Shown: in pieces, positions 7,067-11,784 of the stretch
Numbering within the stretch: position 1 is the stretch's first letter
Layout: each line of letters opens with the position of its first letter
Assembly: GCF_001517625.2 (NCBI RefSeq)
Contig: NZ_LN999828.1
Span: 574,303-638,302 of the forward strand
Direction of reading: 5' to 3'
DNA length: 64,000 nt
Source: Clostridium sp. AT4
GTDB taxonomy: Bacteria; Bacillota; Clostridia; Lachnospirales; Lachnospiraceae
Translations under genes and position numbers: made by a program
Notes under the pieces: generated by a model
What the model saw: only the letters and a program-made list of their open reading frames with translations
Databases searched by the model: none
Told to the model about the DNA's origin: nothing

Positions 7067-7891
7067 ATGAAAATGAGTGATACGCAAAACACCGTTGCAG
7101 CTGTAAAGAAGGAGCTTCTTACCCGGCTGGGACATGACGCTGATATTTTTGTACTGATTTCCCTGTGCACAAGGGAACCGTATGTGGTATGTGATCCGGA
7201 AACCTTTGATGACGAGGTATTCTTATACTTAAATGAGGAGGAGGCAAAAACAGCAGCAGCCGGCCTCGCAGAGCAGAAGATCCCTGTTTCCGTTGCAAAG
7301 GTAAACGGTAAGGATATGCTGGTATTTTTTACCAGTCTTTATGCTATGGGCGTGAATGCCCTGATCGTGGAGATGAACGGGGAAAAGGCTTCCATGCAGG
7401 TAGGAGATATTGTAAAGCGCAAGTCTCCGGATGATATGCCCCAGGGAACCGTGTGGGTGGAAAATCCATCCCTTCATCTGACTGCCATCTATCTGGCTCA
7501 GGAGATGAGACGGCCGGCAGCTGAGGCAGAAGCAGAGGCGCGGGCAGAACGGATCAAAGAGCTCAATGAGGAGCTGACAGCCGATTTCCGCAAGGGCAGC
7601 TATATTTTTGCCATTCAGAAAGAGGAGAAGGGGATTCCTCTTGTAAAGATGAAGGACGGACAGCTGTTCCAGCCTGCTTTTACAGATATTCTGGAGTTCC
7701 AGAAATTTAACCGCGACAATAAGCTGCGCCCGGTTGTGGTGGAGGCGGAAAAGGTGCCTACCGTACTGGCGGCTGAAGCAGGCGGCATTATTTTAAATGT
7801 GCTGGGAGTAAACCTTCCTTTGACTGTAAACCGTCCGGGGGTTCAGAGACCGGAAGCACCTGCGGCTGAGGCTGTGCCTGAGCAGGCATGA
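7067..7891 (+). CDS. SseB family protein
   Basis: About 275 aa. The middle part (YVVCDPETFDDEVFLYLNEEEA and the later PSLHLTAIYLAQEM) resembles the SseB N-terminal domain family (PF07179), whose molecular role is poorly known. A Glu/Ala/Arg-rich helix lies near residues 147-175, and a Pro/Ala-rich tail ends the protein. AAGGAG at 7058-7063 supports ATG 7067 or, with better spacing, ATG 7073; an upstream ATG-like reading at 7010 would lie in the promoter. The stop overlaps the start of the GTPase-nuclease fusion by 4 bases, so the two are probably translationally coupled. Confidence 0.65.
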   Translation: MKMSDTQNTVAAVKKELLTRLGHDADIFVLISLCTREPYVVCDPETFDDEVFLYLNEEEAKTAAAGLAEQKIPVSVAKVNGKDMLVFFTSLYAMGVNALIVEMNGEKASMQVGDIVKRKSPDDMPQGTVWVENPSLHLTAIYLAQEMRRPAAEAEAEARAERIKELNEELTADFRKGSYIFAIQKEEKGIPLVKMKDGQLFQPAFTDILEFQKFNRDNKLRPVVVEAEKVPTVLAAEAGGIILNVLGVNLPLTVNRPGVQRPEAPAAEAVPEQA

Positions 7892-10617
7892 AAAAAACAG
7901 TTGTAGGTCTGTTGGCCCATGTAGACGCCGGAAAGACTACCCTGTCGGAGGCTATCCTTTACGGCGCCGGAGCCATCCGCAGGCTGGGGAGAGTGGACGA
8001 CAGGGATGCGTTTTTAGATACCTTTGAGCTGGAGCGGGCCAGAGGGATTACCATTTTCTCCAAACAGGCCGTTTTTTCTATGGGCGATACGGAAGTGACC
8101 CTTATGGATACGCCGGGCCATGTGGATTTTTCAGCAGAAATGGAGCGCACCCTTCAGATCCTGGACTATGCCGTTCTGGTGATCAATGGAGCGGACGGCA
8201 TCCAGGGCCATACGGAAACGCTGTGGAGGCTGCTAAAGCGCTATCAGATTCCGGCCGTTTTGTTTGTCAACAAAATGGATCAGGCGGGTACGGATAAGGA
8301 GCGCCTGATGGCAGAGCTAAAGGATCGTCTGGATGAGGGCTGTGTGGATTTCGGAGGCTGGCAGGCAGATGGGGGAGAATGGAATCCCGGAACAGACGAG
8401 AGGGAGAGCTTTGCAGAGAACCTGGCGGTCTGTGATGAGGCGGTGCTGGAAACATATCTGGAGACAGGAGAGATTGGCAGGGAGGAGATTATCCGCATGA
8501 CAGCCGGCCGGAAGCTTTTTCCTGTATTTTTCGGATCAGCCCTTAAGATGAAGGGGATCGAGAGCTTTTTAAGGGGGCTTTTTGAAATTGTCCGGGCTCC
8601 GAAGGGAAGCTCTTCTTTTGGTGCCAAAATCTATAAAATATCCAGAGACAGCCAGGGAAACCGTCTGACCCATTTAAAGGTTACCGGAGGAGTCCTTTGT
8701 GTGAAGGATGCGCTGATCGGGGAAGAAAAGGTCAATCAGATCCGGATTTATTCCGGATCAAAGTATGAGACGGTTCAGGAGGCGCAGACAGGTACGGTCT
8801 GCGCAGTTACCGGCCTTCTTTCCTCTGCTCCGGGACAGGGGCTGGGAGCAGAGGCCGCTTCTGAGCTTCCGGTACTGGAACCGGTGCTGACCTATCGCAT
8901 TCTTCTTCCGGAAGGTACGGATGTGCATAAAAGCCTCCGGGATTTGCGCCAGCTGGAGGAGGAGGAGCCGGAGCTTCACATCCTCTGGGAAGAGGCGACC
9001 GGTGAGATCAAGGCTCAGGTTATGGGCGAAGTACAGATCGAGATTTTAAAAACGCTGATCCGTGAGCGATATGGTCTTGAGGCAGAGTTCGGCACGGGAA
9101 ATATCGTGTATAAGGAAACAATCCTGGAGCCCATAGAGGGCGTGGGCCATTTTGAACCTCTGCGCCATTATGCGGAGGTGCACCTTCTTCTGGAGCCTGG
9201 GGAACCGGGAAGCGGCCTGCAGTTTGATACGGTCTGCAGCGAGGATGTGCTGGACCGGAACTGGCAGAGACTGGTGCTGACCCATCTGGAGGAAAAACGT
9301 CACAGAGGCGTTCTTACAGGGGCTGAGATTACGGATATGCGGATTACCCTTTTAACCGGACGGGCCCATATTAAGCACACAGAGGGAGGGGATTTCCGCC
9401 AGGCGACGTACCGGGCTCTGCGCCAGGGGCTGCGTGCGGGAAAATGCCGCCTGCTGGAGCCGTATTATGGGTTCCGTATGGAGATTCCTGCGGAGAATCT
9501 GGGACGGGCAATGGCAGATATAGAGCGGAAAAACGGCGTATTTGATCCTCCGGAAACCGAAGGGGATATGGCGGTTCTTACAGGAAAAGGGCCGGTGGTG
9601 AATCTGAGGGATTATCAGAGAGAGGTCACTGCCTATACAAAGGGAAGAGGACGGCTGTCCTTGTGGTACAGGGATTATGAGCCCTGCCACAATGAGGAGG
9701 AGATCATCGGCCAGGCAGGATATGATCCGGAGGCAGACCTGGAAAATCCAACCGGTTCTGTATTCTGCTCCCATGGAGCCGGTTTTGTGGTACCCTGGGA
9801 TCAGGTGGAGGACTATATGCATCTGGAAAGTCCTTTAAAGAAGAAACAGGCGGAGAATGAGGCTGAAAGGAAAGTATCTGCCGCGGATGTCCGTTCCAAC
9901 GGTTCGGAGCCGGGCCGTGTTTTGGGCGGTGCAGGAGGCTCCTGGACGGATGATAAGGAGCTGGAAGCTATTTTCGAGCGCACCTTCGGCCCGGTACGCC
10001 GGAAAAATCCTGGCCAGGAGGGAGCGAGAAGCCGGGTTTTTGCCAGTGAAAAGAAAAGAAAGCCGGAAGAAAAAAAAGAGGAAGAAACAGAGTACCTTCT
10101 TGTGGACGGCTATAATATTATTTTCGCCTGGGAGGAACTCAGGGAGCTGTCGAAAACGACCATTGAGGGCGCCCGCCACCGTTTGATGGATATTCTGTGC
10201 AATTATCAGGGCTATAAGAAATGTACGCTGATCCTGGTATTTGACGCTTACAAGGTTTCAGGGAATACAGGGGAAGCGCTGGACTACAACAACATCCATG
10301 TAGTATACACCAAAGAGGCGGAAACAGCGGATCAATATATTGAAAAGCTGGCTCACCGCATTGGGCGGAAGTACAGCGTGACCGTGGCTACCTCAGACGG
10401 TTTAGAGCAGCTGATCATTTACGGACAGGGCTGCCGCCTGATGTCTGCAAAAGATTTGAGAGAGGATATTGAGTGGACGGAGCAGCTGATCCGCGAGGAA
10501 AAAAAACGCCTGGGAGCACCTGGCAAACATTACCTGTTTCAGGGAGCAGATAAAGAGCTGAATGATTATCTGGAAGAGATCCGGCTGGGACGAAAGGAAA
10601 CAAAAACACAGGAGTAG
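7888..10617 (+). CDS. TetM/EF-G-like ribosomal GTPase fused to a Rae1/YacP-like NYN nuclease domain
   Basis: A 909-aa fusion. Residues 1 to about 650 follow the tetracycline-resistance ribosomal protection / EF-G layout: P-loop AHVDAGKTT (10-18), DTPGH (74-78), NKMD (128-131), then domains II to V. A charged linker (about 650-732) leads to a second domain from about residue 736 (YLLVDGYNIIF) that matches the NYN family of YacP. It has Asp740, the FDAYK Asp and the TSDGLEQ Asp in the expected order. YacP/Rae1 in Bacillus subtilis is a ribosome A-site mRNA endonuclease. The fusion suggests a GTPase that brings a nuclease to the ribosome, which is inference. Drug resistance need not be its role. 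Confidence 0.85.
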   Translation: MKKTVVGLLAHVDAGKTTLSEAILYGAGAIRRLGRVDDRDAFLDTFELERARGITIFSKQAVFSMGDTEVTLMDTPGHVDFSAEMERTLQILDYAVLVINGADGIQGHTETLWRLLKRYQIPAVLFVNKMDQAGTDKERLMAELKDRLDEGCVDFGGWQADGGEWNPGTDERESFAENLAVCDEAVLETYLETGEIGREEIIRMTAGRKLFPVFFGSALKMKGIESFLRGLFEIVRAPKGSSSFGAKIYKISRDSQGNRLTHLKVTGGVLCVKDALIGEEKVNQIRIYSGSKYETVQEAQTGTVCAVTGLLSSAPGQGLGAEAASELPVLEPVLTYRILLPEGTDVHKSLRDLRQLEEEEPELHILWEEATGEIKAQVMGEVQIEILKTLIRERYGLEAEFGTGNIVYKETILEPIEGVGHFEPLRHYAEVHLLLEPGEPGSGLQFDTVCSEDVLDRNWQRLVLTHLEEKRHRGVLTGAEITDMRITLLTGRAHIKHTEGGDFRQATYRALRQGLRAGKCRLLEPYYGFRMEIPAENLGRAMADIERKNGVFDPPETEGDMAVLTGKGPVVNLRDYQREVTAYTKGRGRLSLWYRDYEPCHNEEEIIGQAGYDPEADLENPTGSVFCSHGAGFVVPWDQVEDYMHLESPLKKKQAENEAERKVSAADVRSNGSEPGRVLGGAGGSWTDDKELEAIFERTFGPVRRKNPGQEGARSRVFASEKKRKPEEKKEEETEYLLVDGYNIIFAWEELRELSKTTIEGARHRLMDILCNYQGYKKCTLILVFDAYKVSGNTGEALDYNNIHVVYTKEAETADQYIEKLAHRIGRKYSVTVATSDGLEQLIIYGQGCRLMSAKDLREDIEWTEQLIREEKKRLGAPGKHYLFQGADKELNDYLEEIRLGRKETKTQE

Positions 10618-10659: not shown

Positions 10660-11784
10660 ATGCTGTATACATATCCCCATTATTACAGAATGTTTCAGTG
10701 TATCGGGTCAAAATGTCCCGATACCTGTTGTGCCGGATGGGCAATTATGATTGATGATAAGGCCTTAAAACGGTACCGGCAGACAGAGGGTTCCTTTGGA
10801 AACCGCCTGCATAATTCCATTGACTGGAAGGAGGGCTCCTTTCTGCGCTATGAAGGGCGCTGTGCCTTCTTAAATGAGGAAAATCTCTGCGATCTTTATA
10901 TTGAACAGGGAAAGGACAGCCTGTGCCGGACCTGCAGGCAGTATCCCCGCCATACAGAGGAATTTGAGGGCTGCCGTGAGATTTCTCTGTGTCTTTCCTG
11001 TCCGGTGGCTGCAGAACTGATCCTTGGCTGTAAGGAACCGGTCCGCTTTCTGGAAAAGGAGGATGAGCGGGAGGAAACCTATGAGGACTTTGATTTTTTC
11101 CTGTATACAAAGCTCATAGATGCCAGAAGCCTTATTTTTAAACTGCTCCAGGATCGGAAGACGCCGGTTTCCCTGCGGCTTTCCATGGTGCTGGCTTTGG
11201 GCCATGACTTTCAGGGAAGGATTCGGAGAAACCGGCTTTATGAAGCCGACGCCCTGTTTGCCAGATATGAACGGGAGGATCGGATCAGGTATTTTGAAGA
11301 AAAGAAAATTCAGGGAAGCCGGTATGATTTTCTTAAAAAGCTGTTTTCCCTTTTGGGGGAAATGGAACCCTTAAACCTCAAATGGCCTTCCAGAAGGGGG
11401 AAAATCGAAGGCTCTCTTTACGGAAATGGGGAAGAGGCTTATAAAAAGGCCTGGAACGTATGTTTAAAGGCCTGTCCTGAACTTGAATTATGGACTGAGC
11501 AGCTGATGGTATACTTTGTATTTACCTACTTTTGCGGAAGCGTTTACAATGAAAATCCCTATGGAAAGCTTAAAATGGCCCTGGCCTCTGTACTGATCAT
11601 TCAGGATATGGCTTTAGAGCGTTTTATGGAGCAGGGAAGCCTGGATGTAAAGGCCATGGCGGATGCAGCACACACCTATTCCAGAGAGGTGGAGCATTCA
11701 GACGAAAACCGCCTGCTCTTGGAGGAGCGCCTTACAAAGGATCCGCGGTTTGGATTGAGGGATTTTCTGGGGGCCATGCTGTAA
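10660..11784 (+). CDS. FliB-like lysine N-methylase family protein
   Basis: A 374-aa protein whose cysteine pattern fits the flagellin lysine-N-methylase (FliB) family: CIGSKCPDTCCAGW near residues 14-27, CAFLNEENLC, CRTCRQYPR and CLSCPVAAE. FliB methylates flagellin lysines in Salmonella, and the cysteines are thought to hold an Fe-S cluster. No flagellar gene is in this window, so the target here is unknown. It follows the GTPase-nuclease gene by 42 bases, with AGAGAGATAAGAA upstream of its ATG, and is probably in the same transcript. Confidence 0.75.
   Translation: MLYTYPHYYRMFQCIGSKCPDTCCAGWAIMIDDKALKRYRQTEGSFGNRLHNSIDWKEGSFLRYEGRCAFLNEENLCDLYIEQGKDSLCRTCRQYPRHTEEFEGCREISLCLSCPVAAELILGCKEPVRFLEKEDEREETYEDFDFFLYTKLIDARSLIFKLLQDRKTPVSLRLSMVLALGHDFQGRIRRNRLYEADALFARYEREDRIRYFEEKKIQGSRYDFLKKLFSLLGEMEPLNLKWPSRRGKIEGSLYGNGEEAYKKAWNVCLKACPELELWTEQLMVYFVFTYFCGSVYNENPYGKLKMALASVLIIQDMALERFMEQGSLDVKAMADAAHTYSREVEHSDENRLLLEERLTKDPRFGLRDFLGAML

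Follow-up and report, generated by a model that had tools for sequence, protein, structure and literature searches.

Introduction

The translational GTPases EF-G and Tet (tetracycline-resistance factors such as TetM and TetO) put their domain IV into the A site of the ribosome, and the mRNA endonuclease Rae1 (YacP) of Bacillus subtilis has been proposed to act in the same site. Here we describe a gene of Clostridium sp. AT4 (Lachnospiraceae) that joins both types of protein in one reading frame. It is located in a stretch of 64,000 nucleotides (assembly GCF_001517625.2, contig NZ_LN999828.1, positions 574,303 to 638,302 of the forward strand), which is called the window in the following. Our comparative analysis confirmed the fusion as genuine and strongly conserved, with an EF-G/TetM-like GTPase and a full YacP/Rae1 nuclease domain of the NYN type separated by a variable linker.

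The NYN part of the fusion has the aspartate set and the fold of B. subtilis Rae1/YacP (PF05991; structures 5mq8 and 5mq9) at 34–38% identity (Foldseek alignments), but the protein differs from Rae1 in its additional GTPase and linker, its location outside the cysS-mrnC-rlmB cluster, a tyrosine at residue 788, where free YacPs mostly have histidine, and the relaxation of several invariant residues. TetM and TetO share the EF-G-like GTPase; unlike them, the fusion scores below the Tet cut-off, exhibits other domain IV loops, falls into a separate clade and carries an extra Cys/His extension as well as the nuclease. With EF-G it has the domain order and the predicted fold in common, but it remains below the cut-off of the EF-G model TIGR00484.

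The domain pair itself is already known. The survey by Atkinson 2015 (PMC4342817) describes Tet proteins with a YacP-like NYN domain from ten clostridiales species and reads the combination as possible RNase-based antibiotic resistance. In the passages of it that were consulted, the broad distribution, the single clade, the non-Tet loops and the loss of a separate yacP are not mentioned. The literature searched contained no account of the dominance of the fusion in the family, of the replacement of free Rae1 or of a connection with the A-site model; it did not cover a 2018 survey of Rae1 distribution that may discuss the fusion.

Results and discussion

Domain architecture and conservation of the fusion protein

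The 909-amino-acid protein is encoded by a single open reading frame without internal stop codons. The original prediction, made from the letters of the window, had proposed a TetM/EF-G-like protein fused to a YacP/Rae1 NYN domain, and both domains were recovered with Pfam and by their predicted fold. The features of the gene are as follows.

7888..10617, plus strand: fusion gene, 909 amino acids, EF-G/TetM-like GTPase and YacP/Rae1 NYN nuclease (open reading frame and Pfam)
7900..8592, plus strand: G domain, residues 5-235 (Pfam GTP_EFTU, E 5.7e-50)
8623..9093, plus strand: EF-G-like domains II and III, residues 246-402 (Pfam EFG_III; predicted fold matches EF-G)
9100..9438, plus strand: domain IV, residues 405-517 (Pfam EFG_IV)
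9136..9183, plus strand: domain IV loop containing EPLRHYAEV, a signature of the subfamily
9343..9423, plus strand: domain IV loop region with KHTEGGDFR (KHTEGGDF exact in 103 of 114 fusions)
9448..9696, plus strand: domain V, residues 521-603 (Pfam EFG_C)
9673..9825, plus strand: extension at the C-terminal end of the GTPase; C600, C627, H629 and H645 (alignment; candidate metal site)
9826..10089, plus strand: variable linker, residues 647-734 (alignment and structure model)
9958..9990, plus strand: conserved linker motif ELxxIFxRTYG, residues 691-701 (E691 in 100/105, I695 in 101/105 fusions)
10096..10584, plus strand: NYN_YacP (Rae1) nuclease domain, residues 737-899 (Pfam PF05991, 166.2 bits, cut-off 24.6)

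The first half belongs to the EF-G/Tet superfamily of translational GTPases, as indicated by the GTP_EFTU domain, the G motifs and the EF-G domains. GTP_EFTU, EFG_III, EFG_IV and EFG_C each exceed their Pfam cut-offs, the match extends to residue 603, and domain II is represented by a weak Pfam match (21.2 bits, cut-off 27). An AlphaFold model of the whole fusion, built from an alignment of the window protein and 60 named relatives, has a mean predicted local distance difference test score of 85 and a predicted template modelling score of 0.66. GTPase and NYN domain are each ordered, and the linker contains a helix (649-667) and two low-confidence segments (669-689 and 704-730). The best matches to the whole model are EF-G structures, and the closest PDB match of the GTPase by sequence is TetO. 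For a separate model of the NYN domain, Foldseek returned the three chains of 5mq8/5mq9 as the sole matches at E <= 0.001, and the superposition on 5mq9_B (1.7 A over 144 columns; Foldseek) documents the Rae1 fold, with 5mq9 also matched by sequence (E 9e-26). The linker motif ELxxIFxRTYG may dock on the ribosome or on the GTPase; the rest of the linker is variable.

The conservation of single residues was determined in an alignment of 105 single-frame fusions, which comprises the window protein, those of 78 of the 80 named loci and, from a second set of 40 loci that includes free-YacP loci, another 26; split or short frames were excluded. The residues D740, D786, D815 and D837, which we take to be the catalytic set of the NYN/PIN active site, are virtually fixed: the first three are aspartate in 105/105 fusions and D837 in 104/105 (one gap), and all four are equally fixed in 30 free YacPs. 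Conservation of these aspartates among orthologs had been chosen beforehand as a test of the original prediction, and its statement that the G motifs are intact also holds. The P-loop residues D13, G15 and K16 occur in all 103 rows that reach them and T17 in 102 (one Met), and D74, P76, G77, K129 and D131 are present in 105/105, H78 in 104/105 and N128 in 100/105 fusions (five Thr). The extension behind domain V exhibits a comparable pattern (C600 and C627 105/105, H629 101/105, H645 104/105), and it is possibly a metal site, as judged from the alignment. A comparison of the window gene with that of a congener yielded a ratio of nonsynonymous to synonymous substitution rates (dN/dS) of about 0.02 for the NYN domain, the most constrained part, and about 0.08 for the GTPase, of which only the order is informative because it is based on one pair with dS near saturation.

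Distribution of fused and free YacP

The occurrence of YacP was compared in three overlapping samples of the family (150 genomes), the class (291) and the phylum (299), and all results are raw counts that ignore kinship. The fusion is the sole YacP match in the window genome (97% complete). YacP is present in 135 of the 150 genomes of the family, namely as a fusion in one frame of at least 840 amino acids in 119 genomes, as a free form in nine (eight open frames of 174-184 amino acids, plus G068) and as a frame that is broken or located at a contig edge in seven (G006, G042, G095, G098, G128, G135, G140), in which parts of the fusion are visible where inspected. G128, G006 and also G372 are fusions interrupted by contig ends, as the sequence that precedes the break belongs to the linker or the GTPase. 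In the class sample, a YacP match (E <= 0.001) was detected in 189/291 genomes, 188 of them above the cut-off; 102 combine YacP with a GTPase of the fused clade (including a few broken frames, e.g., G200, G219, G230 and G372), 55 are free among the matches listed, and 32 more are YacP-positive without a listed frame. The phylum sample harbors YacP in 155/299 genomes, and 18 of the 149 with a listed frame are fused, 12 of these outside the class.

The expectation that free YacP is absent where the fusion exists was borne out at the level of sequence, because no genome of the three samples clearly combined the fusion with a free YacP (class overlap 0). One member of the family (G039) contains a fused gene and a second YacP fragment (L239:2-421) that breaks off within the NYN domain at the end of its contig and can be called neither fused nor free. 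Only four class genomes have two matches, i.e., G282 and three others whose second YacP was rejected as a sub-threshold partial match of 21 bits. G282 (61% complete) carries two fusion genes (L176, L186). Two further two-match genomes of the family were likewise dismissed as double carriers, since the matches in G130 represent one frame and the second match of G076 is a 22-bit piece at a contig start; the sole two-match genome of the phylum sample has two short frames. Within one genus, the fusion was found in four species and a free yacP behind rlmB in one (L192/G208 versus L193/G174), so that this genus lends itself to a natural comparison of the two forms.

Both domains are located in one frame of more than 820 amino acids at 78 of the 80 named loci, thus excluding an assembly accident; the remaining loci are L156 (two frames) and L159 (807 amino acids). 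The fusion is carried by many clostridia of the gut and the environment; examples with a species or strain name are Ruminococcus flavefaciens FD-1, Fusibacter sp. 3D3, Anaerovorax odorimutans and Intestinimonas butyriciproducens. At L058:5513-8198, GTPase (711 amino acids) and NYN domain (190 amino acids) are encoded by two frames that overlap by 23 bases, which represents a natural fission, a frameshift or a sequencing error.

The empty yacP slot and the origin of the fusion

The gene rlmB is located directly upstream of free yacP in 27 of 30 loci, mostly in the order cysS-mrnC-rlmB-yacP; of the other three, L217 lies at a contig end, and L047 and L051 are located elsewhere. The window genome retains cysS-mrnC-rlmB (C7:443341-445948) without yacP behind it, and mrnC-rlmB was found beside none of the 121 fused loci, many of which have short flanks. 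The empty slot and the different location of the fusion document that the latter has replaced the stand-alone yacP gene.

The phylogenetic tree of the NYN domain was calculated with 44 fused (of 114) and 30 free sequences; its bootstrap is not fully settled and many forks are open. All fused NYN domains are located on one side of a branch with a support of 98/92 that is present in 96% of the bootstraps, and their nearest neighbors are free YacPs of the window's own family. The GTPase tree contains 28 fused and 13 unfused sequences as well as a Tet, an EF-G and a single further sequence. Here the fused GTPases form one clade with a support of 100/100, unfused GTPases of about 650 amino acids adjoin it, and Tet and EF-G are placed distantly on long branches. 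Given that fused NYN domains and fused GTPases each form one clade, the simplest reading of the sequences is a single fusion event.

The unfused sister GTPases (L088-L091, L203-L211) have KHTxGGDF and EPLRHYAEV loops and occur in genomes with and without YacP. The two loops of the fusion are preserved in them with small changes (KHTEGGDF exact in 10/13). In the family, an unfused GTPase is present in five of the nine genomes with free YacP (one of them, G099, with an internal stop), a sixth of the nine, G068, contains only a distant 448-bit relative, and a GTPase at E <= 1e-100 was found in 0/15 family genomes that lack YacP. A tie between unfused GTPase and free YacP, suggestive in the family, was rejected because it did not hold in the class.

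Proposed function of the fusion protein

On balance, the protein probably serves these clostridia as their Rae1/YacP mRNA endonuclease, held in permanent linkage to a translational GTPase of its own that brings it to ribosomes. More tentatively, it may represent a widespread clostridial surveillance factor, whose GTPase inspects the A site and whose tethered Rae1 cuts the mRNA gated by GTP hydrolysis, and which replaces free Rae1 across much of the class. From the families of its two halves we infer that the fusion binds ribosomes, hydrolyzes GTP and cuts RNA, and the architecture suggests, as the original prediction had it, GTP control, cutting in the A site and the clearing of stalled ribosomes.

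In the proposed cycle, the GTP-bound factor would dock on a ribosome with a free or abnormally occupied A site, and the domain IV loops would read the decoding region and thereby test the site. Hydrolysis of GTP would loosen or release domain IV, so that the flexibly linked NYN domain could enter and cut the mRNA that has become accessible, within the A site or adjacent to it; alternatively, it might cut just outside of it. The cut message would then be passed to ordinary rescue by tmRNA or a MutS2-type protein, and the window genome encodes a tmRNA and an 836-amino-acid frame with an Smr domain (MutS2-type by size). How the steps follow one another, how domain IV hands over to the NYN domain and which ribosomes are chosen are guesses. 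If the proposal is true, the mRNA nuclease is built into a translational GTPase. If Rae1 occurs in most genomes of this family only as part of a GTPase, the fusion identifies its partner, and delivery, timing and target choice would become testable in one purified protein.

Several observations weigh against this proposal. First, if the GTPase binds like EF-G or TetM, its domain IV and the NYN domain should not fit into one A site together, and the simplest form of the cycle is sequential with a hand-off. Second, R851, E840 and E856 are invariant in the 21 free YacPs that do not belong to the family but present in only 63%, 81% and 51% of 114 fusions, so that substrate or docking may differ; residue 788 is tyrosine in 99% of the fusions and mostly histidine in free YacPs. 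The possibly shifted docking residues fit a GTPase that has assumed part of the docking but also a changed substrate. Third, the fusion gene is missing from 24/150 family genomes (15 without any YacP, nine with the free form) and hence is not indispensable. Finally, unfused sister GTPases occur in 10/87 class genomes with a free YacP or one without a listed frame versus 6/102 genomes without a YacP match (Fisher p 0.20), and their presence in the latter shows that this subfamily of GTPases does not generally depend on the nuclease.

The relaxed residues also bear on the rival explanation that survives best, although we regard it as unlikely, namely that the protein is a factor of ribosome maturation or turnover whose GTPase brings the NYN domain to rRNA (e.g., near the decoding center) or tRNA instead of mRNA. 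The loss of free-YacP invariants would be in line with a shifted substrate, and a test for RNase activity on rRNA is proposed in the 2015 survey (PMC4342817). However, both the sequence and the fold of the NYN domain match Rae1, whose substrate is mRNA under translation (PMC10100781), and the fused form replaces free YacP instead of accompanying it.

Relationship of the two halves and identity of the GTPase

Somewhat less likely still is the scenario that the halves are joined only for joint expression, with an ordinary Rae1 and a GTPase that has a separate job. The long variable linker and the unfused versions of both halves in other genomes would be compatible with such independence, but the linker contains a conserved motif, and 102 of the 103 class genomes with a GTPase of the fused clade have YacP, the exception (G280) being a fragment whose 3' end is lost at the contig boundary.

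The tethered Rae1 proposed here would be delivered by a GTPase that, judging from its scores, loops and tree position, is a subfamily of its own, adjacent to Tet and EF-G and distinct from both. The Tet protection model NF012153 is matched by all 24 aligned fusions at E <= 1e-30, but the window protein scores 409.6 bits and does not pass the cut-off of 775, whereas an intact Tet(O/M)-type gene of the same genome (L035, G000:C7:1070968-1072809, outside the window; 639 amino acids) reaches 851.9 bits and passes both NF012153 and NF033148. The EF-G model TIGR00484 was not passed either (290.6 bits, cut-off 659.4), and the genome has its own EF-G-type gene. In domain IV, KHTEGGDFR is located where the Tet protein of the genome has SPVSTPADFR, and neither KHTEGGDFR nor EPLRHYAEV was found in its Tet or EF-G; the loops of the fusion are thus not of the Tet type. 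The designation as TetM-like is accordingly correct with respect to the fold and has to be abandoned with respect to family membership.

These differences make it improbable that the fusion is a drug-protection protein whose GTPase clears tetracycline or another A-site drug with the assistance of the RNase. This explanation builds on the EF-G/Tet fold, is suggested in PMC4342817 and agrees with the public annotation of the Agathobacter rectalis fusion WP_306784676.1 as TetM/TetW/TetO/TetS-type tetracycline resistance. Apart from the low Tet score and the exchanged loop, the presence of the gene in 126/150 family genomes (seven broken or contig-edge frames counted) is unlike that of a patchy acquired gene. 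The annotation of at least one fusion as tetracycline resistance could inflate resistance counts in gut surveys.

Genomic neighborhood and mobile records

Two genes flank the fusion in the window.

7070..7891, plus strand: SseB-domain gene, upstream (SseB N-terminal domain, 39.9 bits, cut-off 21; not a conserved partner)
10660..11784, plus strand: FliB-type lysine methylase gene, downstream (NCBIfam FliB, 308 bits, cut-off 85; not a conserved partner)

The arrangement is as originally described, with an SseB frame whose last four bases (ATGA, 7888-7891) are shared with the start of the fusion. The suggestion that SseB and FliB belong to the same pathway did not withstand the comparison with other loci. 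SseB was found beside the fusion at only one of 40 loci, that of the congener, where the genes are about 110 bases apart by the predicted start and do not overlap; FliB is present at the congener locus and, at a distance of 2.2 kb, at one other of the 40, and neither gene was detected near the fusion at any named locus (80, often with short flanks). Both were ruled out as partners by this lack of conservation. No conserved operon was found among 114 loci (59 with more than 4 kb on both sides), the largest neighbor cluster occurring at 12 of them on either side; by eye, this cluster resembles generic ABC ATPases.

A role as an anti-phage or abortive-infection device that stops translation by cutting mRNA is very improbable. 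That a ribosome-tied nuclease could act in this way is reasoning only; PADLOC returned no more than a chance-like match of 15 bits, the gene is present in most of the family sample, and no conserved neighbors were found, of which SseB and FliB were compared with defence models. One record labelled as a bacteriophage (MT835514.1; L237) contains the fusion, but its neighbors resemble feoB, glutamyl-tRNA synthetase and glycerol kinase genes (by eye), and this housekeeping-like context points to a bacterial chromosome, so that the phage-borne candidate was rejected. The NYN part is matched by 23 plasmid records; among the ten listed, two have a GTPase/Tet annotation (518 and 252 kb), and the gene inspected on the 252-kb record is a fusion.

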